From: Cystobasidium ongulense
Taxonomy: Eukaryota > Basidiomycota > Cystobasidiomycetes > Cystobasidiales > Cystobasidiaceae
Assembly: GCA_022835595.1 (NCBI GenBank)
Contig: BQUP01000013.1
Span: forward strand, 186,001 to 250,000
DNA: 64,000 bases
Direction: 5' to 3'
Below, one piece after another: positions 6,208 through 62,500 of the stretch. Within the stretch, counting starts at the first letter, position 1; each line of letters opens with the position of its first letter. The position numbers and the translations under genes were made by a program. The notes beneath the pieces were generated by a model. That model was not told the DNA's origin and made no database searches. It saw nothing but the letters and a program-made list of their open reading frames with translations.

Positions 6208-8077
6208 TCAATAATCCTCCTCTGAACCCGAAGCTACAGCCGAAGCTCCTCCATTAACATCAACACCCGAATCTTCATCATAAACGACCTTTCTAACAGA
6301 TTTACCTAGTTTGTTCCTGTAGAACAGGACTGATCCTTCATCCTCGACAAACTTGCACTGTTTGTAGTTCTTGACTAGGGAATAGTACATGTTGTCGTCC
6401 GACTTCATGTAATAGTCACCGAGGACGGATTTCAGAGCCTCTGTAGCTTCCCAAGCGTGGTAGTGTGGGATCCGGCTATTTATGTGGTGAGATACGTGTG
6501 TTTCGCAAATGCCATGTAGGATGAATGCTCCGATCGCTCCTCCAAGGTTTCGGTCGACGGTGCAGAGAGCGCCTCTAGGGAAAGTCCACTCTGAGTTTCG
6601 GTAGTGGGGTAGGTTAGGGTCCGTGTGCTGGAGGAAAGTGATGAGCACTAGGTGGTGGTTGACGACGAAGTAAGGGATGATATAGTATCGGAGGACTTCG
6701 GCGAATCCGCGGTATTCACCCCAAGTAATTAGAGCAGCGAAAGTGGTGAGGATACCAATATCGGATAGGATGATCTGGCTGCGGTGTTTCTTGTCAAAGA
6801 TAGGAGAGTTAGGATCAAAGTGGTTGGTCCATCTTCCGTACTTTTGTCCAGATGCGTTTCTAAGGAGGTACATGGGCCATCCTAGAGTTTGCTGCAAGAC
6901 GACCCAGAACAAGTTCCATAGAGGAGCGTCTTCTAGAATCTCATCAAGTGCTTCAAAGGTAGTTTCACCCTGCTTGACTGCCTCTTCTTTTTGTGCTGTG
7001 GCGGGTGGAATGCCAACTTGCGAGCGAGTCTTGGGGACGAAAACTTCATCTCGCTCCATGCTGCCGGTAGCGGCGTGGTGACGGGCGTGCTGTGATTAAC
7101 AGTTTGTCAGTGACTGATGTCTCGCAGTGATATTTCCTCTGACTCACGCTGATTCTCCAGCTGTGGTAAGGAACGAGAAGGGCAGAGTGGCAGATGAGAC
7201 CGACGGTGTTGTTGAGGGTCTTTGAGGTTGAGAAGGCTTGGTGACCGCCTGTAAATAGAAGCACGTTCAATTAGTGCAATGTCCTTTTGTGATTTAAGCC
7301 CGTTTGACATTGCTCGGTCCGATGTGCCTGTCTTTGAACTTCGCCAAGACCGGCACACAGGAACCTGCTAAAGCAGCTACCAGAGCCTGCCAACGCCGCT
7401 GTCAAAGCCTGCTGATGCAGCTGCCGACGCAGCTGCCGACGCAACTGCCAACGCAGCTACTGATGCCCTGCACTCACATTCGTGTGCCACAACCCAAACT
7501 CCCGTACCGACTGAACCAGCGCAGAAGGCATATACAGCCCAAGCAACGACTCTTGCGATTGATCCAGCGAGGCCATTCAGGACGGAGCCATTCTTGGCGT
7601 TGAACGCGGGATCGATAAAGGTAGCAGAGTAGACGATGACTGCTAGCATTGCGAAATCTGCAAAGAGGTAGAGGAACGATCTGAAGGCGGATCTTTCAAA
7701 GCAGTGTTTTGGGATGGCGCCTGTGGTTGATTGACGGGATCGAGGTGGATAAGAAGGAGGGTTATTCAAGGTCAGTATTTCTGCATGATCATACGTCTCT
7801 GCGCCTCTCTTGCTGCTGTCCGACACGTCGAAGAGTGGGCCAACGAGGAGGGATTCTCTCCCGTTTGCCGTTGGCCATGCACGCAGGATCGTGGCGGCGA
7901 CTCACCCAGTAGGTCCTTTACGGTGAATGAAGGCGGGGTGAAGGTGGACATGCCATCGCCAGACTCGTCGGAGGACGAGTCACTGGCATCTTCAGCGGTG
8001 TGGAGGGTGCTCTTTGCCTGGACGACGCGCTGTCGGAGGCCCGCTGGCTGGGTTGAGGATGGGGCGAGGCCGGCCAT
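6208..8077 (-). CDS. FAD2: Delta-12 (oleate) fatty-acid desaturase, copy 2
   Basis: Exons 7906..8077, 7478..7720, 7148..7248 and 6208..7089 give 465 aa. It is a paralogue of copy 1 with the same predicted ER role in linoleate synthesis. The histidine boxes are HECGH at about residues 136-140, HARHH at 173-177 and HVSHH at 370-374. Exons 2 and 3 are exactly as long as in copy 1 (243 and 101 nt). Exon 4 (882 nt) equals the summed length of copy 1 exons 4 and 5 (461+421), so the catalytic half has no net length change. The N-terminal about 60 residues and the C-terminal acidic tail diverge most. Intron 2 (7249..7477) is unusually long and contains a 12-nt tandem repeat. The start is the first ATG (8077), aligned with that of copy 1 by the following [10 protein letters not shown]-like motif. 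Confidence 0.93.
7417..7464. repeat. 12-nt tandem repeat in desaturase copy 2 intron
   Basis: Four consecutive 12-mers of the type GCAGCTGCCGAC, the first two identical and the later two diverged, lie inside intron 2 (7249..7477). The corresponding intron of copy 1 is short and lacks them. The minus-strand frame stays open through the repeat (Ala/Ser-rich) but ends before the next exon. Confidence 0.85.
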
Positions 8078-17642: not shown

Positions 17643-19593
17643 ATGATTCTCCGGCAGCACTCTGGCAGCGACCATTCGGCGACCCGCTCAACTCGAAGAA
17701 CACTCCATGTCTCGTACACGCCCATCCTGCTCGGCCTCGTCGCTGGGGCACTCTTGCTGTCACCCGCGTCATCACCCCTCGCCATCGTCAATGCAGCTGC
17801 AGTCGAGGTCCATACTCACGATGGGCAGCCTCAATTGACCTTTCAAGCTCCGAGGAACCGCCAGGCTGCTTTGAGCTCACACCGGCCATCCAGCTCAAGT
17901 CAATCCTTCTCTCTCACCCACGCCATTCACCTCGGCGGCGATCGATACCCGGGTCTCCAAGCTCACCATTCTTTCCATCCTGGAAGCTACGATGTTCTAC
18001 TGCTCGACAAGGACATTACGGGAGACCGCCCAGCTTCTTCCTCGGAAGACGAGGTGCGCATCTATGGAAGCGATGAAATGCAAGTCAAGTCTGTCAAGCA
18101 AAAGATATGGCGGCCTTCTCATCCTGGAGGGTCAGAGGTGTATGAAGCAGCTCGGCGGCGGAAGTTTCACAGGAACAACATAAAGATACAACAGCTAGCT
18201 GACCAGCTTACATGGAGAGAGATAGAGGTCGATGCTCCGGACGTGTCGGACGTGCACACCCTCGCCACGCTCGCCAAGATGTCAAGCAATGCATACTCTA
18301 CGCCCAACAGCGGCTGGTACGACATCACCAACGACACCCTGTCAGACGGTAGACAATACAACTTTTCAAGCTCATTCGGATGGCAGGAGGATGGCATAAG
18401 AGGACACGTGTTTTCTTCCGGTCCGAATAACGAAAGCATCATCATCGCTTTGAAAGGCACATCTTCATTCGTAGGAGGTGGAGAGACGGGAAGAAACGAT
18501 AAAGTGAACGACAACCTTTTGTTCTCATGCTGCTGCGCGAGAATCGATTGGTCATGGACCCCGGTGTGCGATTGCTATGCAGGAAGAGGGGAAGATCCTC
18601 CATCAAATGACACTACAGCAGCTTTGCCCTCGGCCACAAGCAAATTCGAAGATCAAGTTTACGTCAATAGATGCAACCTTACATGCTTAGAAGATGCACT
18701 CATCGAGAAATCAGTCTACTTTCCTCTCGCCACCGATCTTTTCAATAATATAACCTATCTATACCCCACTTCCAAGATCTGGCTCACTGGCCATTCACTC
18801 GGTGGAGCACTGGCTTCAATGCTGGCTACTACGTTTGGAGTGCCTTGCGTTACATTCGAAGCACCTGGAGATCAGCTTGCAGCCCGCCGGCTGCATCTGC
18901 CTCTACCTCCTGGATCGAATTGGGACGATAAGCGACCGGACTTTGGTATTACACAAGTCTACACCAATTCAGATCCAATACCTCAAGGCGTAGTAAGCGG
19001 ATGCCTCTGCCTAGCAGTTCACCCTTCTTCGCAGGGCTGATTTTCTCTCACTCTCACAGTGCACTGGCGCGTTCTCTACCTGTGGCTTGGTAGGGTTCGC
19101 TCTAGAGTCCAAGTGCCACACTGGACAAACCATCATATACGACGCTGTCGGCAAGCTGGGATGGGCCGTCGACATCCGCACTCATCGAATAGGCACACTT
19201 ATCGAAAGACTGCTCATCCCGGACTGGGACAAAGAAGAGGCGAGTGGTAAGGAAGAGAGCACTGCCTTTGTGTCGGACCTGTTAGCTAGACCCAAGATAG
19301 ACAAACCGAATAATAGATGGTTCTCGTGGGGCTGGCCTTGGCCCCGACCTGGCAAAGGTAAACGAGGTCATGGAGATGATGATCTCGATTCTGGCGATCC
19401 AGACGATCAGCCCGACGAAGGCGATGGCGATGGCGATGATGGCAATGAGCCTGAAGAACCAACAGATCCTGCGCAACCACCTCCTCACAAGGGCAAGCCT
19501 TCAAAGTCGCATGTTCCCAAACCTCAGATCAACTCGGAATGCAGGGATTGCTTCAAGTGGGAATTCTTCGATGACTTTGGTGGGAAGGCGTAG
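17643..19593 (+). CDS. ATG15: Autophagy lipase Atg15 (class 3 lipase)
   Basis: Exons 17643..18992 and 19060..19593 give 627 aa. Atg15 is a vacuolar phospholipase that lyses autophagic and MVB vesicles after delivery through the MVB pathway. A single N-terminal hydrophobic segment (about residues 25-50) is the expected type II signal-anchor. The lipase domain contains ALKGTSSFVGG, the nucleophile elbow GHSLG (Ser at about 385), FEAPGDQLAARRLHL, and ALESKCHTGQTIIYD across the splice, all typical of Atg15. The C-terminal 150 residues are Asp/Gly/Pro-rich low complexity ending in a short conserved-looking C-x2-C motif (CRDCFKWEFF). N-glycosylation-type NxS/T sites are frequent in the lumenal part. 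The intron at 18993..19059 restores the CTGAFSTC segment. Confidence 0.94.
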
Positions 19594-20298: not shown

Positions 20299-22741
20299 AT
20301 GCCTGAAGCTGCGCCTGCCCCCGAGGTCGAAGACAAGGTGTTCTGCTACCTCTGCCGTTGCCGTCTCTCGTCGCTCAAGCCCGTCGCCATCAACAAGACA
20401 CGAGCCCACGACGTCCGCAACAACACGCACATCAAGCACTGGATACTGCCTGAAGCACACCACACAGATGGCGTCAAAACCAGGCTGTGGACGCGCACAG
20501 AGGCCAACGAGGCCTTCATCTCCGCGTGCTATATATGCCACCAGGCAGCCGAGAACTCTTTCACTTCTGTCGAACGCGCTGTGTTCGTCAATACACCCTC
20601 CAAACTCAAGAATGCGCTCATAGAGATCGGATGGAGAGAGTGCGTAGCTTGTCTTCCCTGTTTCTTGCGTTGTCGAGTCCGTATAGCTAATGTTGTTCTT
20701 CGCTTAATCCAGCGTGCGCAATTCAGGCAAACTGACTGTAGGCTAATATACGTGTCTAGTATTGTACTCGTACCTAGCTAAAAATCACCTGCCATACACC
20801 AGCCTGCCAAGCTAAAGAATTACAAGTGGCGGACCCAAGAGCTGTGAGTGGACTTCGTGTTCAAAGCATGTGGCGTACGTACAAGCAAAGCAGAGACTGA
20901 TGGTAACACTTACTACTCCTAAAATCACAGGCTAGACTACAAATTGAAGAACTGCACCTTCAAGTGAGTTTCTTTACTGGCTGATCTACTCGTTCTCGGC
21001 AGCAATTGACTGCGCACTTCTCACTCCCTTGCAGCGATGTGACAGATTTGTGGTCAACGAAAGGAGACCTTAACTCCTTGGTAAACAAGGGGGAAGCTCT
21101 CGATATGTGGGTGAAAGCAACAAAAGACGGAGAGGCGCTGGCGGAGCGTCTGGAGACTCGTCTAACGACCAAGCACGACGCCGATATCGCCGGCGTGAAG
21201 GGTCAGATTGATGTCGCAACTGAAAAGCTGGAGCAGCTCAAAGAAAAATTCGAGGAATTGGAAGAGACCGTCGATGAAGATGAACGTGATGTTGAGGTCG
21301 CCGTTGAAGTCGAAGTCAAGACTCCCGCGCATGGAAATAAAAAGCTCATCGGTATCCTAAGGAGGGATCTCGATATGATCAAGGAGGAGCTGGAGACCTA
21401 CAAAGAGTCAAAAAACACAGAGGACCGAGCAAGGGACGAAAAGCTACACCTGCTACTCGCTGGCTTCGAAGAGCTCAAAGCTGGCCAATCACAAACGAAG
21501 CGCCTCCAGAGACACATTGAAAAGCTCGAATGGAAGCTGACGGAAGCTACCGCTCCTTTAGCTTCTGCTAGTGCAAAGGGCAAAGGCAAACGAAAGAGGG
21601 AAGAAGAAGCCAGACCTGCTCAATTCCCCCCAACTGCCAATCAAGTAATGGCTGATGCTGAAGCTGTTCTGTAAGTTGCCATTTTAGTAGTGTCAGGCTC
21701 GAGCACATGGCTGTCAGCGAGAGGACAAAAGGGCAGCGGCTGACTCTGCAGCGGTCTTGTTCCTACCACGTCTGCAATAACAGTGCCAAGAAGAATCGCA
21801 AGATCTGGACACAGATATCTCATTCGGACTCCGGATCGACGGACGCATCTTCAGATGAGGAAGCAGTTCAACAACGTCCCTCCAAGGTGCCACCGCCCGC
21901 CAAGAGGCGGCGTGTAGATGATGGGGTTGAAGTCTCGATTCCGACTCATCCTACTGCAAGAAGGTCTGGGCAATCAGTGTCTTCCCCATCTGCAAAGCCG
22001 GCGGTGGCCAGAAATGTAGCAACCAAAAACGCGGCCAGAAATACAATATATCATACAACAAATGATGCAAGAATTAGCACAGCAAACGTCTATCATGAGC
22101 AGCCTACTCCTGCAGAGGTAGTTGCTGCTGAGGCTGCTTCGACCGAGAAGGCGAGACAAGCAGCGCTCGCAAAGGAGGTCCAACAAAGAGAGGAAATTGC
22201 CGAAGCTCTTAGACAGGCAGCTGTTAGGCAGGCAGTTGACAATATAGTGGGATCGACTACGATTAAAAAGAGAATTCCTGCTGTCGACATGTCTCCTTCT
22301 CGACAAGCAGCAGCTGCCTCCTCTTCCGGTACCTCGGACAGACGACCTGCTTTGTATCCATCTCCTCGAACAAGCGCATCTGGATCGACCTCGCAACATG
22401 GACGTGGCAGTTCTGAAGAGCAGGAGGAGAATAAACCGCAAAGCAGCAACACTGTTGCAGGCGGTATCAACATTACTGCGAATGCTCCAGCTCGTACTAG
22501 CTCGGACGGAATCAGAAGCATCTTTCCATCACTTCAACGAGAAGACTCCGTCCCGTCGACCCTACCAGATCTGCCTTTTATGGGCAAGAAAGCTAAGGTA
22601 CCCATCAAGTCTGAGGATCTTGTGCAAGAGATTAATGATGAGCCAGTCTATGTCGCTCATGAAGCATCTGCAAGATCAGTAAGGCAGGAGCAACGTCAAT
22701 CTCTGATCGACAGCGCCAAAAAGGAGGATCAGGAGCATTGA
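20299..22741 (+). CDS. Unrecognised CxxC...CYIC protein, paralogue A
   Basis: Exons 20299..20639, 20713..20737, 20812..20843, 20931..20963, 21035..21670 and 21784..22741 give 674 aa. I do not recognise the family. Exons 1-4 (about 145 aa) encode a module shared with paralogues B and C: CYLC at residues 16-19, ILPEAHH near 50, ACYIC with Cys 77 and 80, FTSVERA, LKNALIEIGW, then a short stretch ending in LLDYKLKN. The two CxxC pairs, 57 residues apart, suggest a metal-binding fold (inference). The tail starts at exon 5, a long charged heptad-like region (about residues 145-330) likely to form coiled coil. Exon 6 is Ser/Ala/Gln-rich and disordered, with a basic patch (PPAKRRRVDDG) resembling a nuclear localisation signal. 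Micro-exons 2-4 (25, 32, 33 nt) were placed by similarity to B and C and by frame closure. Confidence 0.75.
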
Positions 22742-23506
22742 AAGGTACTACTACCAGGAAGTGTTGCAGCTGAAGGACAGCGGAGAAGTAATAAGTTATG
22801 AGGTTGGGCAGGCCGTCTGCCTCAGTGATGCAGCAGAAGGGTTGCACGCCGGCTCTGAATACGTCGAAGGCTAGCACGGTATGCGCATACACGGCATGGT
22901 GCGGCTAGATACCCCCAAATTTAATTGTATTGGGCTTGGATATTAGAAGATTTAGACGGACTTTAGCTTATCACATCGTAATTCGAGCCTATATGCTCTC
23001 TTCTCAATCCAGCACAGAGTGATCGGACTTTGCCGAGCACCAATCTTGCGGCTTTCGAGCTTGGTTTCCCTTACCTTGACATTGATGCATACTATACTCT
23101 GCCAGAGAAGACAAGCGCGATGAATGCGTCTGGACCTTGCCTATTCTGCTCTCGCTACACTACAGCATACGACGGTACTTTGCAGCTGATTCGAACGACG
23201 CCACGCCGCGGAAGCATGAAGCTTTCGTCTAATATTCTCCAAGCATGCTGAAGCACGAGAGTTGACTATGGCAAGCTTACCTTTGGCTGTTCAGCTTCTC
23301 TTTCTTTCCTTTCCATCCTTCTCGGACGTTCTGCTCGAGATGCAGCCCGGAACAGTGCCGCGAAACTGCGATTGAGTACTGACCGAGCGAGAATGTCGAA
23401 ATTTGATTCTGCACTCTCTCTCTTCTCTAAGTCATCATTGTCATCGTCATCGACATCATCATTACAACCACAACGCAGACCCCGAATAGCGGTCACGGTG
23501 CTCGAC
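22742..23506. promoter_or_regulatory. Spacer between paralogues A and B
   Basis: 765 nt. An in-frame ATG at 23393 lies 38 codons upstream of the conserved start of B, so the start of B could be earlier. Otherwise nothing is recognised. Confidence 0.45.
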
Positions 23507-26150
23507 ATGGCGGACCATCCAACGTGCTGCATCTGCGACGTGCGGCTCAACACGACAGAACTGCGAGTCAACAAGGCCCAGCCTGTTCGAGTACATCTCA
23601 TCCCAGAGTCTATGCATGACACGCTCATCGATGAGGGTGTGTACACCAAGAGCGAGTGCACAGCGTACCACATCGTCGCTTGCTATATCTGCAGCGAGGC
23701 CGTCAAGCGATACTTTACAGACGAAGAGCGAGCTCGATTTCTACCAACTTCAGCTGATCTCAAGCAAACTCTGGACGCACTTGGCTGGATCAGGTGAATA
23801 GACAGAGCTGGAGTTGCGCGTGTTATGGTAGAGTCACTCGGTCTAATGCTGCTACTGCTTCTAGAATCCGCAAAAAAGGTATCAACGGCAATAAGGCATT
23901 TAACGTAAGTCGGTCGTTCACCTGATCCAGTGGCATTACGACGGATAGTGACGAGAAATTCTTCCCAAATTCACCACAGCTGAAGAAATTAGCTGCTTTC
24001 GACTTCAAGACAGAACAGGTGTAAGCTGCTTCCCTGTGATTGATGCACATGCCAACAAGCTGATTATAGTCGGCCGCCAGGATTGCCTACAAGCGAGATC
24101 ACTTCAGCACACTGTAGGTTTCCATTGTCTGAATGAGCAATATGGGGTGTATACACAAGCTCGTACCCATCAAACTGACCTTCTCTACTACACTCTCGCA
24201 GTCCCCTTGCTGTTTCCCAGGCTTCGGTCGATACTACCACGCTGTTCGATGACGATGTTGTCCCGAATTCACCCACTGGCTGCGGATCCTTCGCTTTCGC
24301 AAATGATAGCACTTTAGATGAATTGGATGAGCGAGTTCCTTCGCCCTTCGAAGCCACTGCTGCAACGTGCATCCCGCACGAGGTTGACGGCGAGAATGTA
24401 ACAATGGAAGTCAATTACGGTATGAGCACAGAAATCGAGCTTGAACAGCTACAAATTGCTGCCGAAATCAACGCAATTGAACAAGAGTTAAGAGGCATAG
24501 ATACACTCATCGAGGCAAGTCAGGTCACTACCCTTCGAGACGATGCAGAACAAGTTCTCTTTGATGGCGAATACATCTTTCCAGTTGAGCTCTATCAAGC
24601 TTCGATTACACCACCAGAAGTAGACGAAATCCATGTTCCCATCGCCTGCGATACTTTCAGCAGCCTTCAGCTAGAACACATAAGTCTACCCATCAATCCA
24701 GGTCAGACGGTTTGGGGCGAAGAATTACACGAGGAAGCGTCTCCATCTATCCCAACCAGACAAAACACTGGAGTAGACAGCAACCCTAATGAAGATTCTG
24801 CAGCTATTAAGGATAAAGGCGCTGCTGCAACGGCAGACAATCTACAAGATGTGCCCGCAGCTATCTACATTAAACAAACACCCAACATAATCAGTCCACT
24901 TCTGTTGAATCCTTTGACAAGCAGTCACGAACAGCAGTCAAGAGAAGAAGTACTACTGCCTATTGACCCTACTCAGTCTGCTAGAGAAGATCCTGTTGAA
25001 TCCAATCAGCTTATGAAGAAGGAAGAAATGGAAGCAGACATGGACAACACATCAATTGTGTTCAATCCCGTTCGCCATGTAGCAGATGTCTTAACAAATG
25101 AGCTAGAAGAGGCTTCTTCGGCCATAGAGGTCGATGAGCTGGCCAATGTCGACGAGGAGCCGGAACAGGTACCTAGCATTACCGAAGGTTGTGGAGCACG
25201 CAGTCGCGTTCGAGAACCAGATCACATATGTCCCACTGAATTCAATCAGCCGTGCAGCAATCAAGCTATACCAGGAGAAATTTCGGCAACGAGGGAAGCA
25301 GAACTCGCACCTCCCATCCAAGTCAATCAGCCAAACAGCCATCAACATGAATTGACAACAGCTTCAGTTCTGAAAGAAGCAGATCATTCAGCCTTTGATA
25401 CAAAAGAGATGCAAACGAGTCATGAAGCAATAAACCAAAAAGAGGTGGATGAGCTGGTGCAAAGAGTGCTTCGCCGCACCACCCGCCTCGCAACGAAGAA
25501 CGGTCGGCCTTTAGCAGCTTCCAGATTCACCAACACCCTTTATAGTCCGTTTGACAGCAAGAAGCGGAAGAGGGGAGAAAGACTGGCTGCGGTCATAAAG
25601 AATAAGAGAAGAAGACCTGGCACGCCACATCCTGGTGGGCTGGATGTGGATGTGTATGTGGATGTGGATGTGGATGTGGATGTGGATGTGGATGTGGATG
25701 TGGATGTGGATGTGGATGTGGATGTGGATGTGGATGTGGATGTGGATGTGGACTTGGAGTCTAGCGAATTTGACGAGAGCTTGTGAGTTCGTCTGGACAA
25801 TCAAACCGTATACCTAAGGTGATGTTGTTCGACTCAGCTGATTTGTTTCTTACATCTTTTCTTTTTGTTCTGACAGGTATATTCGTAACAGATGTATACA
25901 ATGCAGGGATATAGAGCCACACGAGGTTGCGGGTTTCCCCCGTCTCGACATCGAACTCGAACTCGAACTTGAACTTGAGCTTCCTGATTCTCCCAGCCGC
26001 AGCACTCAGTGGGCCTTGTCCATGCCAAGCAGTCCCATCATTACCGATAGACTCTCCTCGCCCTCGCCCGCGCCAGTAGGTCAGTTTTCCAGAGAGCTTA
26101 TCTCATACGAGGTGACCAACAGGCTATTAGGAAAGGATCAGTGTGAGTAG
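23507..26150 (+). CDS. Unrecognised CxxC...CYIC protein, paralogue B
   Basis: Exons 23507..23793, 23865..23904, 23980..24020, 24081..24113, 24202..25782 and 25877..26150 give 751 aa. The N-terminal module matches A and C: CCIC (Cys 7 and 10), LIPESMH, ACYIC (Cys 59 and 62), FTDEERARF, LKQTLDALGWIR, LKKLAAFDF and IAYKRDHF. The tail is unrelated to A: a roughly 500-residue acidic, Glu/Ile-rich region, a basic segment (KKRKRGERLAAVIKNKRRR), then a (Asp-Val)n repeat encoded by a GATGTG array. The last exon adds a second CxxC (RNRCIQCRD), a (Glu-Leu)n run and a Ser/Pro-rich end. Start choice follows the M-[SA]-D...C pattern shared with C. An upstream in-frame ATG at 23393 would add 38 residues. 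Function unknown; nuclear location is inferred from the basic segment. Confidence 0.72.
25643..25753 (+). repeat. GATGTG hexanucleotide array coding (Asp-Val)n
   Basis: About 18 hexanucleotide units, one diverged to TATGTG, in frame inside exon 5 of paralogue B. The array is open in several frames on both strands (Met-Trp, His-Ile, Ser-Thr readings), which produces spurious antisense frames. Confidence 0.95.
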
Positions 26151-26676
26151 ATGTAGGCCATCAGCTTGCTCGGCCGACAAGGATACTATACTTTAGTTTG
26201 GAGACAATAAAGTTAGCTGCATTTGTGCGCCAAAACAGGACCGTATTTCAAAAGTAAACTCGGTATTTAGATTTTCAACACGTAGTTTGAGTATTGTTCT
26301 TGATTCTTGAGTATCCACAGTAATCATCTTATTATTCTTAAGCTTGTCGAGAGTCTTGAGTCTGACTCTATTCCGAGCTTTGTGTGAATGCGCTCGACTT
26401 TTCCTCCCGCCAACACAGGCGAGACGCTTTACACGGGCGAGAAAGTCTACAGCACTCTTATGACACTGGTAGCATGAAGTCCAAGGCAGCACTCCTGCGG
26501 TATCATCTATACGAGCAAGCTTCCTGTCACCTTGTCCGTCTGATTGCGGACCAGCTCCGGTCTGGTCGAAGACCATTGAAAGTTGTCCAACGGGGACTGC
26601 TGTTGCGCGCTTGTCGACTGACTGCGTGTGTCGTATCTCACTGACGCCTGCTCTCGCTCGAGTTGCGACAGCGCTC
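26151..26676. promoter_or_regulatory. Spacer between paralogues B and C
   Basis: 526 nt containing the 3' flank of B (AATAAA at 26206) and the upstream region of C. A long antisense frame (26193-26831) covers it but has no family support. Confidence 0.45.
26206..26211 (+). terminator. Possible polyadenylation signal after paralogue B
   Basis: A consensus AATAAA lies 56 nt downstream of the B stop codon, at a typical distance. Fungal polyadenylation often does not need it, so support is weak. Confidence 0.35.
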
Positions 26677-27833
26677 ATGAGCGACTGCCCATCGTGCTGG
26701 ATCTGCTCGGTCAGGCTCAAGACGCAGCATCCAAGCTGCGCAACCACTCGAAGATCAGGCAGGCTGCATGTCAGACTCGACCTCATCCCCCAAGCACTGC
26801 ACGGCGCTCTCGTCCAAGCAGGTCTATACACACCACAAGAGTGCAGAAACGCCCATGTCCCTGCTTGCTACATCTGCAACGAGGCTGTATCAGGCTACTT
26901 TACCGACGCTGAGCGAGCTCGCTACTTGACAAACCCACGCATCCTTAAACAAGCAATGGACAAGATTGGATGGATCAAGTAGGAGTCGCTCGAAATAAAC
27001 ATACGCGCAGGTCCTCTCTGATATCGTTGTACTGGTATGATGACAGACTCCGTCAAGCAAGGAAAGGTCCACATTCTTTCGGTGTAAGCAAGACCAAAAG
27101 TCTGTTGATTTGCACATGTTAGCAGCCTGCTGACCTGATGTTTGTTTTCCAATCCTCCAGCTGACCAAGCTGGCGACATTTGATTGGAATACCGAAGAAG
27201 CGTGAGTGACGCCGTCTTTACAGTAAAATATACCTCATTAGACTTCAGATATTGACTGCGGCCTACCTTGAACCCCTCTCGTCCTACAGTGTCGCATACA
27301 AACGCATCTACATGTCTTCAGAGTACGTATATACTTCTACTATGGCAGACACGAAGGCGAATAATCCTGAACCTGCACCTTCTTGTTACAGTCTTGAGGG
27401 CGAACTCCTAAACGAGACCAACGAAGGCGAGAACACTATGCTATCAGAGAGCGCGACACAGATTTCAGGCAGTTGCATCACACGCGGCGACCTTCTCGCA
27501 GTCGTAGATGCCATCTTCGCGCGTCAATCTAGAAATGGCGAGAACGGTGATTTAGATGCGAGGCTTGCTAGCATCGACACCACATTGGCGAACCTAGAGC
27601 AAGGACAAGCTGAATGTAGGGATGATAGCAAGAAGACCAAGGGAGTCGTAAAGCAAATCAAGAACCGAACTACTGCATATCACGATGAAGCTAAACAGGC
27701 AAGACTGGAAGATGCTCGTCTTCGATCTGAACACGAGGAAAGGCTTGCGAAACTCGAAAGACAGATTGCTCGGGTCAGACCACCTAGTCCTGAGAGTCCT
27801 ACAATACATGTCAACAGCGAGGAGATTTCCTAG
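26677..27833 (+). CDS. Unrecognised CxxC...CYIC protein, paralogue C
   Basis: Exons 26677..26978, 27047..27083, 27161..27201, 27290..27322 and 27392..27833 give 284 aa, the smallest member. The shared module has CWIC (Cys 7 and 10), LIPQALH, ACYIC (Cys 64 and 67), FTDAERARY, LKQAMDKIGWIK, LTKLATFDW and VAYKRIY. It is closest to B: exons 3 and 4 have identical lengths (41 and 33 nt). The tail (exon 5) is a single charged helical region predicted by eye to form coiled coil (residues about 170-265), followed by a short Pro/Ser end. The start ATG gives MSDCPSCWIC, paralleling MADHPTCCIC of B. This member shows the minimal architecture, module plus coiled coil. Oligomerisation through the coil is inference. 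Confidence 0.75.
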
Positions 27834-28147: not shown

Positions 28148-30736
28148 CTACGATTTACTGCTTTTGCTCGTTTTTGACTGTTTGTTTTGCCTGATCTGAG
28201 TGTATGCACCGTGATCTTCCTTCTTGATCTTGCGCGAGACATCCTTGCTTCTGCTTACCCGAGTAGATGATTTACTAGTAGTAGCTTGAGCGTACATTGG
28301 TAATGTAACGAATCCTCCGTCTACGAGACATTCTATATCGTCTTGCGATGAGGCGAGGGACAGATCGATGGGTTCTCGCTCTGTGTGAAGCATAGTCCGT
28401 TGTCAACATGATCTCTGCTAATAGCCAGCACGAAACTCACTCACTCATAGGTGGACTAGGGTGGTGATCTGATTCACCCGAACATGCTGCGATGTGGCTT
28501 TCGTATTCTTGATTGTCAAAGGCAATGGTCTTGTGACAGCGAGGACAGGGAGCGGCTGACAGCGATATATCATCGTAGCCATCGTCATCATCATCGTCAT
28601 CTGAAAGGCTCGTGAGGTCAATGGGCGTGGATGCATTCGATTTACGAGCAGATGTTGAGGTGGAGGTAGATGCCTTCTTCGCCCACTATCGAGTTAGTCA
28701 ACAGCGGCAGGTCAGCAGGCTATCACAAACATAGAGCTGGCGATACTTACATCATACAAGGAGCCCTTGCCTTTGCTTTTCTTGACAGCTTCTTCCGAAT
28801 CGTCCCTCAAACCCGAGACTTTCAATCCCATCAAACGTAGCCGCAGGTCTTTCCCTTTGCCTTTGATCGGTCTTCCAGCTTCATGATCTTGTGCTCGAGT
28901 CAAGACCTCGTTGTCCAGCATTTGTTTACCATACTTGTAGAGTTGATCATAGGTATGGAACATGAGTCCATCACCAGGTGTATGCGAGCGCGAAAGTACT
29001 TCGTAGGTCTCGAGCTTGAGTTTCAGTGTGAGCGTTCTTCCCGAATACTGTAAACGTGCCATATCCTCCGCTAGACTAGCTGCTATCTCCTTCAATTTAT
29101 CGTCTAGCTCCTTCGGACGCCATAGAGTGCTGAAGGTAGTTTCATGCCCGACGCCTCTCCTGTCTTCTCGCTTTCCTCGTTCGACAACGTTGCCTGCAAT
29201 ACCGAGGTGTGATCGAAACAGTGCAGCGGCACCCGACTCCCCCTTCGCTAGGACAAGCTTGGCTCGGAATTTGTAGATATCGCGGCATTTGATGACTCCC
29301 AGTGCCTCAAGCCATCGTTCTGTGACACGACCAATCTAGAAGTCCGTCATCAGCTATATTCCGAGAGAAAGTCATTCCGGTTTGTAAAGGACTTACACCA
29401 GGGATCTTGCGGACCGACAGATCATCCATGAACGATTTGCATCCTTCTTTAGTTGGTTCAACCTTGCATTTCATCGAAAGACGTGATAATCAGTGACTCG
29501 CCAGTAGTGCTGACGACGAGTCTGCTCACAACGTATTGACCGTCCGGCTTGTTGAAGTCTGCAGCAATCTTTGCTGTCATGGTATTAGGTCCACACCCCG
29601 CAGAGACTGTAAGACCAGTCTCTTGTTTCACCTCTTCGCGCATCTGTTGGATGGCTTGGTCGGCGGTCATGCCTGTTTTCTTCAGATATGGAGTCAGATT
29701 CATGTATGCTTCATCTAAAGATGCTGGAGAGTAGTTTGGATCTGTATCACGTATGCATACTTAGTAAACCTTCTTAATCGTTGCCGTCTAAGCACTTCCT
29801 CACCATATCGCTCCAGAACGGCCATTACTTTACCAGAAGCAGCTATGTATTTTGTGAAGTCCAGCTTGACGAAGATTAGATGCGGACAGAGCTTCTTTGC
29901 AATATAGCCAGGCATAGCCGATCTCTGTTGGCGAACAAAGTCAGCTCTTTCCAGGCCTGCGTTGCACTACAAGCACTCACACAGCCATACTTGCGAGCTT
30001 CGTAGCTAGCTGTTGTGAGAACACCTTCCCCTACCCCGAACGCTTTGCCTATCAAGCTGGGATCGTCGAGCTCTTCGACTGAAGCATAAAAAGCATCACA
30101 ATCCACGACAATTATTGTTTGGCTGACGTCTCGATGTGCTTCGAGATCAGCAATGATTCTGTCAGCCTTCTTCTCCTGCAGACGGAAGAAGTGTGTAAGC
30201 TCCTGCTCCAAATCATACATGGATATAGAGGTTGTATGCTCACCTCGACACTGAGGTCGCCGCCCCTCGCTCGTATGCTCTCTTCGAGCTTCTTCAAAGA
30301 AGCTTCAATTTCTACAGTCAACTTTTCATCTTTGCGTTCTTCATTGTTGAAGTAGTGACCTCCTTTGCTCTGTCAAGAGATTAAATACCATCATTAGCGG
30401 AGGATTTGGAGAGCGATACGAGGTACATACCGACTGATATATTATCTGACGAACTTCATTCGGGCTGGAGAAAGTAAGGTGGTCAGCGAAGCACAACGGC
30501 GGCGGGGAGACTCTGATGCATACTCTCTCTTTAGACCGGCTTTGTTTGTGCTCGGGCCAGCGAGTCGGTGAAGCAAGCTTTCGGCTGGTTCTGTTGACTC
30601 TTCTGCTTTGCGCTTGCCCTTGCCCGCAGCTCTGGGTGGAGATCCAGAAGGGCCGGCGGAGGTCAGACGGGAGGGCTGTCATGAATAAAGGCGCCTAGCC
30701 ATGTCAGCTATACGCTGGTGTGGTCTGCACGAGCAT
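28148..30736 (-). CDS. POLK: DNA polymerase kappa (Y family, DinB)
   Basis: Exons 30731..30736 (tentative), 30524..30675, 30431..30464, 30244..30369, 29981..30175, 29804..29924, 29530..29741, 29397..29462, 28751..29335, 28445..28685 and 28148..28380 give about 656 aa. It performs translesion synthesis. Visible features: the kappa-specific N-clasp ([17 protein letters not shown], then [18 protein letters not shown]), catalytic [13 protein letters not shown] (Asp about 131), SLDEAY (Asp/Glu about 221-222), [17 protein letters not shown] helix-hairpin-helix, little-finger domain, and a UBZ-type zinc finger (CPRC...H...C) for ubiquitinated PCNA. The tail is Lys/Ser-rich. The N-terminus is the weak point: the frame upstream of 30675 has no ATG, and a 6-nt first exon (ATG CTC) with a GTGCAG donor is only the best candidate. 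It lies head-to-head with GID9, 283 nt apart. Confidence 0.9.
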
Positions 30737-36273: not shown

Positions 36274-39200
36274 ATGTCGGGCTTTCTGTCAAAGTCAAAG
36301 CAGCGGCTGGAGCATACTAGCAAGATCAATGTGGGAGAGTTCAAGGCTCTCCAGTCGCTCTTGAGCCAGGAGAAGACCCTGCTCGGTAGCCATCTGCGGG
36401 TCGCGAATGATCTAAGAAAGGCCTCGCATGCCTTGGACGAGTGGGCTCAGTCTGAAGGGCCGGATCTAGCTGTAAGCACACGCTGCCTATCATATCGGCT
36501 TGCTCGTGGCTTTGTCTCGCTCCCATGCTGACCCTTCTTCCACCGTCGTTGTCGGACACTTTCACCGCCCGCCTTCAACCTGTCCAGGATACTCTTGGGA
36601 AAGTGGCCAAATTGCTGGCCAACGACCTGGCAAAAGCGGAAGAGGAGTATGCAGACCACCTCTCAAACTTCAGAATGTACTTCAAGCAGCTTCGTACACG
36701 GGAAGAGAAGTTTAGCCAGCTCAGGAAGAACAAGGACACCCTACAAGGAAAGATAGATTCAGCCGAAAAGAAGCTCGCGAAGATGAGTCCCGAGCATAAG
36801 GACTTAGGTACCTGGACGCAGAAGCTGTCCGACCTGCGAAAGGAGATGTTGAGCATGGAGAATTCTGTAATTCATGAGGATGCAGCCATTGGCGATTACC
36901 GAAGACAGACGGCCAGGTCTGCAGTTTCACACCAGGTCAGTCAACTATACCAAGATTCAGATGTCACCCCGCTAATTTAAATATTATGCCCATGTTTGCG
37001 ATTCCCAGCTCGCTGCCTTGTGTCAACTCGGAGAGAAAATGACAATTATTGGAGAGCTCGGAAAGCTTTTGACCTACGAAATCAGACTCGACAAAACTGA
37101 ACCAGGAAGCGACAGAATGATGTACAACAGTGAGTAACTTTCTCAGCAAATGCACTGACGAAGAGATGTTGACATAGAACCTACAGGCTTCGACCGCACC
37201 ATGCAAATATACGGAGAGGCACAGACTTGTCTGCACAAAGTTGTCTTTGATGCAAACAACGCAGAACCAGCATACAGTTCCTTGCCTGTCCCATCGCAAG
37301 GCGACTTCGACCAATCTTACGAATATGAGCAAGATGCACAGAATCAAGAATCTGAGCGGCACAGGCACGGCAGTAAGAGAGAAAGTTCCAGCCGGGAGGC
37401 ATCGTTGACCGGCAATGGAGGACAGTACCAAGCTCCTTACAGCGGTCAGCAGCAATCATTTGCAGCTGGACAATCCAACCTCGGCGCTTCCGAAAACGCA
37501 GCTGCCTTCCAACCTTTGTCAACACCCTCGCATGTAGGGTTGGAGAACGACTTTTCAAACGATGTGAACGCGACGTGGCGAGAGCAAGAGGGTACTGCGG
37601 ATCAACATAATCCTTACATCCAATCTCAAGGCATAACAATGCATCCCATACAAGCAATGCCGGATACGAATCATGCTCAGCCTCCATCCGCAAAGCGTGC
37701 AGAGAATCAATCGCGAGAAGATCCGTATGGAGGTGCAGAGTACTCGAGGGAGGAAGAAGACGGCTACAACGAACCAGAATATGTTGATGAAAGCCAGATG
37801 CCACCTCGAATAGAGGAGCCGCCACAGGAGCGTGAGGGCATCACCACTATAGAGGAGGAAACTCGCTCTGCTTTGCAGTCAACAGAAGTATCGTCAAGTA
37901 CCGGCAGAGGGATAGGTGGCTTTTCCAACCCCTCGGCTGTCTCCAGTGATGGAATGCAGCGCCATCAATTACATGATCGACCCGTTCCTCCTGATCCAGA
38001 CCATAGTCAAGATGAAGAATTGCAGCCTGTCGATCACTATGAACCCAATACAGTCAGCCGTAAATATACTGAGATTGCATCGCCTGGCCTGAATGAGGAA
38101 GCGGAGCATTATACTAGGCAAAACTTCGAGCCATCTGGAGATGAGTTATACGGCACTGGCCTTTACGGCGCTACCGCCGGAGCAACGGAAAGCAGAAAAG
38201 ATTTGGAACAAGTCACGGAGCCTCTCAATGTACACCACAACGCCTCTCCTCCCGAGCGTCCTGCAAATATCCCAACGATAACAGAGCCAGAGCCTGTACC
38301 GGCCTACACCGCGGCGCCTACCAGCCAACATGCATCTTCACCTCCCCCGCATGACACGGCTATTCAAACATCTCTGCCGCCGTCGCAGCCAACGTCTGCA
38401 AACACTTCACGCCAAGTATCTCCCCGTCAAGCCCAGTCACCTGATCTGTCAGCAGCCTCTGCTCTCGCAGCGGCAGCAGTTTCCTCAATCAGACCTCGAC
38501 AAGGTGCACAATCATCAAGCAAATCGATCCCCAAACAGCAGAATGTGCCTGCACCACCTCAACACCTCTATACAACAGTCGCGACTTCAAACGGCAAATC
38601 ACCCACCAGCCCTGTCACACCATCTTCACCTACCCGCCGTGACCGAACTCCACCAGTTAAGCAACAATCATATCGTTCAGATCACAAAACTCGTCAGGAC
38701 AGCAACGAAGCTATGGGTAGATCATCTATAGCATACCTGAATGACACGCCTAATTTGGAGCCACCTATGAGAGCTCCACCGCCAGTCAACCTTGGAATGC
38801 CCTTGCCTTCTTCCAGCCCTTACTTCAATCCCTATGCAAATCTGCGCAGTAGTTCGGGTGGACCAGGGGATCATGGCGCATCCGCAGCTGGGGGTGCAAA
38901 TTCTACAAATTCTGGTCGTCCAAAAGGCGCGCGGACTTCAGTGCTCGACACTACGCTGGGCAGCAAACACGGCTTCGACATGCGATCAGTCCAACAAGCA
39001 GCTCATGAGCGTCCTTTACTGCAGCAACCTTCTCCGAATACTAATCTAGGGGCTGTACGAGAAAAGGACTATTCCTATGCGATACGAACTGGCGATGATG
39101 GAGGAGGTCGTCGTCTTGCTGCGGGAGCCTTCAGACGTGCGAATCCTAGCTCCTCATCCATCCCAAGTTTCCGATCCGGCAATGAAGATGCAAGCTCTCC

Positions 39201-48942: not shown

Positions 48943-50346
48943 TTACGACTTTGCATTCTTCTTGGCAGCTTTTTCTCTCGCTCGCTGCTTGAGCCTTTCT
49001 TCTTCTTTCTTGTCCTCGAGTCTGGCAATACGAGCTGCCCTTCGGTCCTCCTCTTCGATATCATCGATACCTGCTTCCATATCATCATCAGAAAGATCAT
49101 CTGCATAGGAAGCTCCGAATGCAGGTGCTTGAGCTTTGTGCGGGTTGAGTATGGCCCATATTTCTTGTCTACGAGCTTCTGTTTTGGACAGCTTCGCAGG
49201 GGGCGAACTTGGAGGAGAGGCAGCACGTTTGCGAGGAGGTGATCTCGAACGAGCTGGCTGTCTGCTGGAGGTCGGATTGGAGGGCGATCTGGTACGTTTC
49301 CGTGGCATCCCATCTGCTGTCGACTCTTTAGCTTTACTACTGCTTTGACCTGGCTTGCTGGAAGGTTCGGCAACTGAAGAGCTGGGTCTCTGATTGGCAA
49401 GAGATGCTTGGGTAGTGGTAGTCAATGTAGAGCTAGATGGCGTTGTTTGAGTGACGTTGCTCGCCGTCTTCCGATTGGCAAATAAACCAGTGCTGGGAGG
49501 TGCAGACGGCGGCGGCTGAGCGAGAGCTTGCTTCCTACGATAGTCTTGCTCAATCTCTTCAATAGTTCGGACGTCTTTCCGGTTTTCATTGAGGCTGCGG
49601 AGCTCGGATGGATCAAACCCAAGCTTGAGTTTCTCCTTGGCTGATAAAGTATCGCTTGCAGAGGCTAATCCCGAAGAACTGCGTGCAGCCTTTCCAGATC
49701 CTCCACCGGCTCGGTGCTTGCTGGAGCCAGCTTTTCGAGAAGTGGAAGCATCCGAGGTGCCTTCGTCATCTGAGAACATAGCATCTATGCGTCTTTTCTT
49801 CTTGAGAGCGACGCTGACGACTTTGGAGGTGGATGCTGCTGATGGTATGCGCTCGGTGGTCGAGGGCAGCTTTCCTCCCTTCTTCGCCACCTGGACCATT
49901 TGTGCTGGTCTATCCTTGGCTTCCTTGTCCTTGAAGGGATATGAACACATAAGCAAGGTTAGCGGGCGAGAGATTGAAGTTGGAGGCGAGTCACCTTCTG
50001 CGCTCGTTTCTCCTCCCTCTCCTTTCGCAGCTTTTCTTCTAATGCCAGCCGTTCTTCCTCTCTCTTGCGGCGAGCTTCCTGTTCTTTCAGGCGACGCTCC
50101 TTCTCTCTTGCGGCATTCTGTTTTTCAATCTCTGCTTCTCTCTTTCGCGTTGCCTCGAGCTCCGCCTGCTTTGCCAGGGCGAGTCCAGATTGTGCCTGCG
50201 TGTTGGCTTTAGCCTTGCTCATCAGGGCTGCAAAGGTGGACTGAAGCCAGAGCAGAGCGTCAGTGGCGGTCTGTCAAGTATTGGCGGTACCCGATGCATG
50301 CAGCTGTGACAGCGTGCTTGTCGTGGTGGTGACTGCTCACATCCAT
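48943..50346 (-). CDS. SPT2: SPT2 chromatin protein (histone H3-H4 chaperone)
   Basis: Exons 50341..50346, 49995..50240 and 48943..49929 give 412 aa. Spt2 binds H3-H4 behind elongating polymerases. The N-terminus MDSTFAALMSKAKA matches the family's conserved start and is obtained only with a 6-nt first exon (ATG GAT|GTGAGC). A long charged helix (residues about 20-85) follows, then Ser/Arg-rich linker and the C-terminal SPT2 domain: EARRQEIWAILN..., the acidic SDDDMEAGIDDIEEEDRRAARIARLEDKKEEE block and basic end. An alternative model starting at the internal Met (50222) loses STFAAL. Confidence 0.9.
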
Positions 50347-59578: not shown

Positions 59579-62500
59579 TCATCCTGTTGCATAAGACGTA
59601 CCCTCAAGCCCTCGACAAACAATGGCAAAGTTCTCTGTAGCTTCCCTCAACTTCCGCAAAGAACGCGAGCTAGATACGATATGGGTTGACACTTAGCATC
59701 ACGTTCAGATTGTTGAACAACTACACTCTCGTACTCACCTCATGATCGCCTTGGCGTATCTGTCTTTCTGCTCTTGCGAGACTCGTCGCGATGGAAAACC
59801 GTCCTGACCAGTGCACCTGAATCAGCACATTGCAATGCTGTGGAAGACGACGATAGCTTGCTGACCTGTGCCATAAGCTCCTTCAGCCAGGCGCGCGTTT
59901 CGTTCGGAATCCTCTTCGAGAATGCCAGAAGAAGCTCTGCTAGGTAGCCCAGATTTGATCTGGGCAGTTTCCCGCCAACGCCGGCTAGCGTACGCTCGAG
60001 AGCTGACTGTCCATGTGCCTGCATCAGGGATAGGAAAATTGGAGCGATGTCCGGCCGAGTACTATCTGCTGCAGCTTCGTTGACCATTGCAGTCTATCAA
60101 AACGTCAAGTGGACTAGATTAACGATAGTCTCGCCAAGTTTCCAGCCATCGGCTTCGACTTACAAGAAGCTGTATGCTCTTTTGGAGACCCACACGCTCC
60201 TGCAGCTCGAGTGCATAAATTGAGACGACGACTAGCCCTTCTAAAAGCTGAGGCAGTGACGCAAGCACAGCGGAGTAAGACGTTAAGGCGGATAACGCCC
60301 AGTCCATGAAAGTCTGCACCAGATCGGGGTGAGCCTCCATTGCTGCAGACATGCATCAGCTCGTTTCACGTTAGCTCGTTTCCTAGGAGCATCACCCACT
60401 TGGCAGATTAGACAAAGATGAGAGGCCCCTCTCCAGTATTCGACCTATCGCGACCTGTAAAATTCCTTGCCCACCTGCTGGAAGCGTGTTCTTACGGAGT
60501 CTGAATAGAAGGAGGCTGGAAATGGATAGCCAGGTGGCTTCGAGGTCTGACACGATCAAGTGACTGAGGATGTCTGCGAGGGCCAGGGGATCCAAAGATA
60601 GTGGAGTAGCTATATTTGTGCTTGTACACGCCTTAAGGAAATCGGCTAAAGACTGTGAAACCTCCGCATCTCTTCTATACGTATTGGTAATGGCCTTCAC
60701 GGCTTCCAGCAGGTGGCCCCGCAATGTCTCAACACGCTCATCTGAGTTTACAGCTTTCGATTTTTCTGCTTCATCCGTAGCTTCGGCCAGACTATCGAGA
60801 TCGAGAATTTCGTCCTCTGGCTCCGCGAGGGACTTTGCGCATGCAGTCAAGGACGCTAACTGCAGGAGGATCACCGCTTTACCCTCATCCTGTCGTGTAG
60901 AGTTAGTAGGCGATGCGACCTAGTTGAGCTAGTCACTTACTGTACTCGGATTGGTCATGGCGTTCGAAAGTTTGGCTATGGAATTTTCCACTAGAACTAC
61001 CACTGGCTCGACCAGGCGGTCTGCTGGAAGTGCTTGAATGACGGCAGCCACACTTCCCACGACTCTGACATAGTCTGATTCCTGCAAGTTATGACGGTTA
61101 ACATCATGCCTTTTGACGTACATCCTGCGACTTACTGGTATTTGCCCCTCTAAATTCCGCACCAGCTCTGCAAAGGAGGCAACATGGTCGATAAGCTCCC
61201 GTCGACAGGAATCACACAGGGCCGAAAGAGACATCGCGGCTGCTTGGGAGGTGTTCTCCTGGCCGAGGAAGCCGACAGTACACTGGAGAGCTGGAAGGAG
61301 AGCTTCGCTGTTGTGCCGGAACCAGGGAGCATACACCTCTGTTGAGGAATGCGCTATGAGCTTAGATCTTTGAAATCGTTGAGAATCAACGTGCTCACCG
61401 ATGAGGCGCAGACCTGCTCGCTGCAGTCGATGATATTGGTTTCCGGTAAGCTTGGCGAGTGTCTGAATGAGCGGCCCACCAAAAAGTTGGGTCGCGGCCG
61501 TCTCCTCGTCCATGGGGACTGCTTCATGTATTGCGGATATGCAGTATAGACTTGATTCCAGATTCTGAACTGATTGTCCGTTCTCTGCAATTGCTTGAAG
61601 CTCGTTTGTCGCTCGCTGGACCAGTTCGGCCAGCATGGGCTCACGCAAGACGTAGTAGGCGTTGATAAGGCAGTCTCCAACGTCAATCCTATATCTTGAA
61701 AAGCTTTGTTTGATGTCTGAGAATGCCTCCAAATTAGCAATCATCACGCTCAAGCCACTTCTAGCAAGCGGCTTACCTGCGGGCCAGCTGCTATACTCCC
61801 TGTCTTCTGGGAAAGTGATTTTGACTTTTAAGCCGTTGACAAGGGTATCGAATACTTCTTTCACTATTGGCCACCTTGGATCTCCGAGGCCGCTTTGTGT
61901 CGCCACTACTCCATTATCTGCTATCTCCTCTTGCAAGTACGCCCAGATTGGAAGAGCTATGTCGCTGATTTGCTCATCTATATCATGATAGCCAGGAAAA
62001 CAGGTAACTAGAAGTAGTCTTTGTAGCAAAGCAATTGACCGGGGAGTAGACAGTTCCGCAATAATGGTGGTGTAAGAGTGCTCGAACAATGCTACTAAAA
62101 GTTTAAAGAGTGCCAGAGTCACGTCTTCCACTTCTTGATCTATAAATTGCCAAGTATTAGCATAGCGTCGCAGTCTAGTTGGTATGGAGCGTACCTTCTC
62201 TAGCTCTCTCGTAAATTTGGCCCACTCCGGGAGATGCGCAGAAATCTAGAAGGGCTGAAACGCGAGTGTCGGTTGCAAAAGCGCCGTCCAGAAGGATATC
62301 TTCGACACAGGCGCATGCGTCGACGCACGTGGCTTCGTTGGGTAACAATTGGAGTACAAGTGGATATACAGATTCCAAAAGGCTGAGGTGTGGTGCATGC
62401 TGGTCAGCTTTGCTCCGGGTTTGTACGAGATGAGGAAAGCTGACTATCTGTTGACGTCGCGCTTTGCTAGCCAACTTTGAAGGCATCTCAGAGCTGCGTT

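Follow-up and report, generated by a model that had tools for sequence, protein, structure and literature searches.

In a 64 kb window (the whole stretch of DNA analysed here) from a 256,459-base contig of Cystobasidium ongulense, whose genome of 19.77 Mb lies in 19 contigs, three successive plus-strand genes (A, B and C; 20299-27833) encode proteins that share an N-terminal head with two CxxC pairs and carry unrelated tails. Our preferred though still tentative explanation, which we hold at just under even confidence, is that they are functional tandem paralogs that diverged long ago, in which the head would be a treble clef of the HNH/His-Me type, stabilised by zinc, probably non-cutting and binding nucleic acid or chromatin, with the tails adding further contacts. 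The head is probably zinc-binding, because its four cysteines are invariant in the four sequences of our alignment A3 (A, B, C and P0002, a relative of the B head described below), and an HNH-like fold is weakly suggested by sequence comparison and structure prediction.

Three tandem genes with a common head

The gene structures were reconstructed by hand from the sequence, on the plus strand and with GT-AG introns. Gene A (20299-22741) has an open spliced frame of 677 aa in six exons (20299-20639, 20713-20737, 20803-20843, 20931-20963, 21035-21670 and 21784-22741), gene B (23507-26150) encodes 751 aa in six (23507-23793, 23865-23904, 23980-24020, 24081-24113, 24202-25782 and 25877-26150) and gene C (26677-27833) 284 aa in five (26677-26978, 27047-27083, 27161-27201, 27290-27322 and 27392-27833). 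The head corresponds to exons 1-4 of each gene, at 20299-20963 in A, 23507-24113 in B and 26677-27322 in C. The sequence-only reading that preceded this work had proposed three consecutive plus-strand genes with a common N-terminal module of about 145 residues, and the rebuilt models and head alignments bear out both the gene order and the sharing, while the length is not uniform (146, 133 and 137 residues in A, B and C). The spacings that it gave between the CxxC pairs are correct by residue positions: 57 in A (C16/C19 and C77/C80), 48 in B (C7/C10 and C59/C62) and 53 in C (C7/C10 and C64/C67). The ACYIC, FTxxERA, LK..GW, (I/L)P(E/Q)xxH and final YK motifs are likewise present as it described them, and the histidine of the P-x3-H motif is invariant in the four sequences of A3.

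The intron structure agrees with a common origin of the heads in every detail that the same reading had pointed out, as the phase series 2, 0, 2, 2 and a fourth exon of 33 nt hold in all three genes. Moreover, all four head introns fall at the same alignment columns (113, 127, 140 and 150), and exon 3 measures 41 nt in each gene. For A this depends on a frame-preserving CAG acceptor at 20803, which lies nine bases upstream of an alternative AAG acceptor at 20812 and is the better choice; with the former, exon 3 has 41 nt in all three genes and the introns lie at identical columns. The shuffle tests of heads and tails, alignment A2 and several of the searches with A used an earlier model with the 20812 acceptor, which is 3 residues shorter in exon 3. 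The heads are identical at 64 of 132 positions between B and C, 43 of 133 between A and C and 37 of 128 between A and B, and protein searches in the own genome recovered them from each other (B against C, E 1.6e-25; B against A, 1.6e-9; A against C, 9.3e-14; A against B, 2.5e-10). Their alignment scores (319 for B-C, 188 for A-C and 152 for A-B) were equalled by none of 300 global shuffles and none of 300 shuffles in ten-residue windows for each pair.

Age of the copies and their relatives

The sequence-only reading had taken the array for a recent expansion, which our data do not support. Nonsynonymous over synonymous divergence (dN/dS, NG86) was 0.44/2.55 for B-C, 0.75/1.63 for A-C and 0.84/1.64 for A-B, with synonymous sites saturated (B-C dS about 2.6), and third-position identity between the heads is 0.38-0.42. 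The head is under purifying selection, of which these ratios give only a rough measure because dS is saturated. At the DNA level the similarity of B to C is confined to two pieces of the head, 61 and 36 bases long; the remaining matches are self-overlap of the queries or chance.

Relatives were sought among 5.8 billion predicted proteins, in a collection with uncontrolled fungal coverage, which seems to hold uninterrupted frames or exon fragments and not spliced fungal proteins, since one of the relatives found, P0001, reads through an intron. Given this coverage, the lack of further relatives is no evidence for the lineage-specific family that the sequence-only reading had suggested. P0001 (one of 1360 candidates from the C query) is 94% identical over 51% of C and covers the C tail, and P0002 (one of 244 candidates from alignment A2) is 84% identical over 70% of the B head; with exon 1 of A as query, neither of two candidates was confirmed in this seemingly exon-fragment-based collection. 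P0001 resembles C, and P0002 resembles B, more closely than the two genes resemble one another, so that B and C were already distinct when the lineages of these relatives parted. These comparisons, with separate relatives for the B head and the C tail, indicate that the copies are old and the duplications not recent. No further copy of the head was found in the 19.77 Mb genome, and neither 18 pattern matches in viral contigs nor 86 in prokaryote contigs were confirmed as relatives. One other match to the A head (E 0.034, 26%) has neither the first CxxC nor CYIC and was attributed to chance.

We consider it very improbable that the common head is due to chance or to the gene models, or that the copies are pseudogenes. 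The splice models were built from sequence alone and few relatives were found, but intron positions and phases are identical in the three genes, the spliced frames are open, dN/dS is low and both the B head and the C tail have conserved relatives.

Relation of the head to the HNH fold

With the full proteins, the heads and the four A3 members alike, every Pfam match stayed below the cut-off of its family (best E 0.016). The HNH family PF01844 remained unmatched in these Pfam scans, and a search of the own genome at E <= 1 gave no PF01844 locus. The sequence-only reading could not match the module to a known domain; this is now answered in part, the best resemblance, still a weak one, being to the treble-clef fold of the HNH/His-Me type. 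Before any structure prediction, VHLIP and ACYIC had been likened by eye to the HxxP and the second CxxC of zinc-containing HNH domains, and one PHROG named HNH endonuclease was matched at E 3.9 by one of the four A3 members.

Structures were predicted with AlphaFold2 from exon 1 alone (as uninterrupted frames) and a four-sequence alignment. The C head model reached a predicted local distance difference test (pLDDT) score of 75.0 and a predicted template modelling (pTM) score of 0.62, a level at which only two of the five models agree, and the B head model was poorer (pLDDT 61.0, pTM 0.43). In the C model a strand (32-35) is followed by two helices (39-47 and 53-58), a second strand (60-63) and a helix (65-74), with the second CxxC (C64, C67) opening that last helix. 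This fits the element order of a beta-beta-alpha-metal motif, and a fold search with the C model returned mainly nucleases, including HNH chains, all of them as weak matches.

Profile comparison points partly in the same direction. When A3 was aligned with hhalign to a PF01844 alignment (30 loci used of 43 matches, from 17 bacterial genomes), the score was 23.0 (P 0.00095, probability 22%, 50 columns). Each of the two CxxC pairs was matched to its counterpart in HNH, B H30 was paired with the catalytic histidine, P33 with its proline, Y54 with the middle asparagine and S63 with the third position. Shuffles of all gap-free non-cysteine columns, with the cysteines fixed, equalled this score in 7 of 200 and 2 of 300 cases. 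Two CxxC families served as controls. A3 scored 13.1 against PF01396 (27 of 30 loci), which 190 of 300 shuffles equalled, and 12.4 against PF01258, which 237 of 300 equalled; the second is a weak control, with 22 of 25 loci tried and 15 kept after rows with stops or too few cysteines were dropped, and with at least one kept row (L235) that looks out of frame. The score against HNH was 17.6 for the reversed A3 and 14.5-21.0 for single sequences. The sequence support for an HNH tie is therefore modest and comes from the PF01844-type alignment alone.

Other results lend this tie no support. The fold search with the poorer B head model did not repeat the result of the C model, and a gp74-like HNH alignment (made from 68 of 79 loci, with HK97 added), which itself matches the PF01844 alignment strongly (145.4), gave A3 a score of 12.8 only, with 213 of 300 shuffles as good. 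Furthermore, the sole PDB profile match was 2csy, a zinc finger protein (E 7.7), A alone had a sub-threshold match to the FCS-type family zf-FLZ (best E 0.03), and ribosomal zinc proteins made up 4 of 15 entries among the fold matches. As two CxxC pairs are compatible with many zinc folds, these findings would suit a head that is another zinc treble clef or zinc fold (RING-, ZAD- or FCS-like), joining proteins, for instance by dimerising, and with no tie to nucleases. We regard this as a rather doubtful but real alternative: nucleases outweigh other zinc folds among the fold matches, the profile signal reaches past the cysteines (the 2 of 300 cysteine-fixed shuffles) and no RING or FCS family reached its cut-off. 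The leading fold matches likewise contained no ZAD, RING or FCS family, an absence that excludes nothing. ZAD, the zinc-finger associated domain of insect transcription factors, is N-terminal, contains two CxxC pairs and has expanded lineage by lineage; our heads resemble it in position and in the two pairs, whereas A, B and C have no zf-C2H2 match at E <= 10.

If the head is HNH-like, it is probably non-catalytic. The triad positions read H30-Y54-S63 in B, H-Y-S in P0002, D35-A59-N68 in C and W48-A72-H81 in A, so that none of the four sequences has the full triad. The first-strand catalytic histidine is found in two of them (B and P0002), the middle asparagine in none, and the third position is S, S, N and H in B, P0002, C and A. 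With the triad incomplete in every copy, the head probably no longer cuts. Since the defining features of HNH nucleases were tested and not found, we do not class the family among them, and claim only an HNH-like, probably non-catalytic fold. It could be argued that at least B is an active, if unusual, HNH-like nuclease, in which H30 is kept and the P-x3-H histidine replaces the lost ligand, as VHLIP occurs in both B and P0002 and that histidine is invariant. This seems quite unlikely, given that B has tyrosine and serine as its second and third triad residues, that A and C lack the first histidine and that no HNH family was matched above cut-off.

According to the explanation that we prefer, each head would begin with a CxxC knuckle, followed by a strand whose end reads (H/D/W)(L/I)(I/L)P, then by an inserted helical stretch and by a strand ending in ACYIC, where the second CxxC opens the next helix, together forming a zinc-stabilised treble clef of the beta-beta-alpha-metal type. 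Cutting would have been lost in such a worn-out head, which would instead bind a nucleic acid or chromatin partner, while the tails would supply other contacts through the basic clusters of A and B and the acidic stretch of B. The likeness to HNH domains (PF01844; His-Me finger treble clefs) lies in the CxxC, the HxxP-like strand and the second strand ending in a helix-opening CxxC, the two pairs being as in the zinc-binding HNH subgroup, and HNH proteins lead both the weak fold matches and the profile alignment. In contrast to HNH domains, our heads have no full triad and no Pfam match above cut-off, about 25 extra residues with helices stand between the strands, an extra C-terminal helix carries LK..GW, and the proteins are eukaryotic, encoded by intron-rich genes and fused to long tails.

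The remnants of the triad differ by copy (the first histidine in B, the third asparagine in C, the third histidine in A). The Smad MH1 domain has been proposed to descend from a His-Me endonuclease, and a parallel course, in which a competent HNH nuclease ancestor became a DNA- or chromatin-binding head and decayed independently after duplication, is conceivable here, although we consider it unlikely. A passage of PMC4999995 counts His-Me fingers as one of the main treble-clef families, with zinc ligands variably lost there and in Smad1 MH1, which it names as a treble clef changed by the loss of residues that chelate zinc. MH1 offers a precedent for a treble clef that belongs to a DNA-binding protein and is not catalytic, with the difference that our heads keep four cysteines.

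Divergent tails

That the tails are unrelated, as the sequence-only reading had noticed, was confirmed by their alignment scores (43 for B-C, 41 for A-C and 47 for A-B), which lie within the shuffle range and were equalled by 74, 155 and 164 of 300 global shuffles. Its suggestion that tails had been swapped found no support: exon 5 of C, A and B has no second copy genome-wide, a search that did not include the last exons of A and B. Divergence in place fits better than swapping, since the tails searched have no second copy in the genome.

The A tail (21035-22741) contains a lysine- and glutamate-rich stretch followed by the basic clusters KGKGKRKR and PPAKRRRVDD; these are of nuclear-localisation type, as is the basic cluster of B. 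The B tail (24202-26150; 617 aa) is, as anticipated, long and acidic (net charge about -74), with a basic cluster (KKRKRGER..KNKRRR), an Asp-Val run and a C-terminal extra CxxC. Basic heads (pI 8.5-9.4), basic clusters in the A and B tails and the acidic B tail lead us to infer that these are binding proteins of the nucleus whose effector tails have diverged. The Asp-Val run is encoded by a GATGTG minisatellite (about 25641-25764), which likely varies in length. The extra CxxC (CIQC), near the C-terminus in the last exon (25877-26150), loosely resembles the first CxxC of the head. Two 51-nt copies, 71% alike, lie within the same tail (25214-25345), which suggests a decayed internal repeat. The C tail (27392-27833) has 147 aa, is charged and probably helical, and is matched by P0001 at 94%. 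Intron 4 of C (27323-27391; 69 nt) may be retained in some transcripts, because it is in frame without a stop and P0001 continues across it, differing at 3 of 23 residues.

A literature search found, by title and abstract, no relevant account of this family or of fungal non-catalytic HNH heads, which does not prove that none is in print. A, B and C may represent a family of nuclear binding proteins that has not been described. If our explanation is right, it would be a fungal family that reuses a nuclease fold as a binding head, with three old tandem copies whose tails diverged beyond recognition, and CxxC-x48-57-CYIC-FTxxERA with the four conserved intron positions would provide an annotation handle for proteins missed by current family libraries. 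Should the HNH tie fail, a well-defined family with an orphan zinc module would remain.

Neighbouring genes

The trio lies between an ATG15-like lipase (Lipase_3, E 8.7e-9; 17643-19040) and, on the other side, a minus-strand gene for a Y-family DNA polymerase (IMS and IMS_C; 28715-29966), in agreement with the ATG15-POLK interval named in the sequence-only reading. The domain scan of neighbours covered 20 of the 48 frames of at least 150 aa in the window. It found an SPT2 chromatin protein domain in a minus-strand frame (48943-49956; E 3.1e-18) and ordinary-looking genes for a peptidase M16 (671-2587), a fatty acid desaturase (6208-7059), a Pil1-like protein (36525-36980) and an importin-13-like protein (60929-62131; below cut-off).
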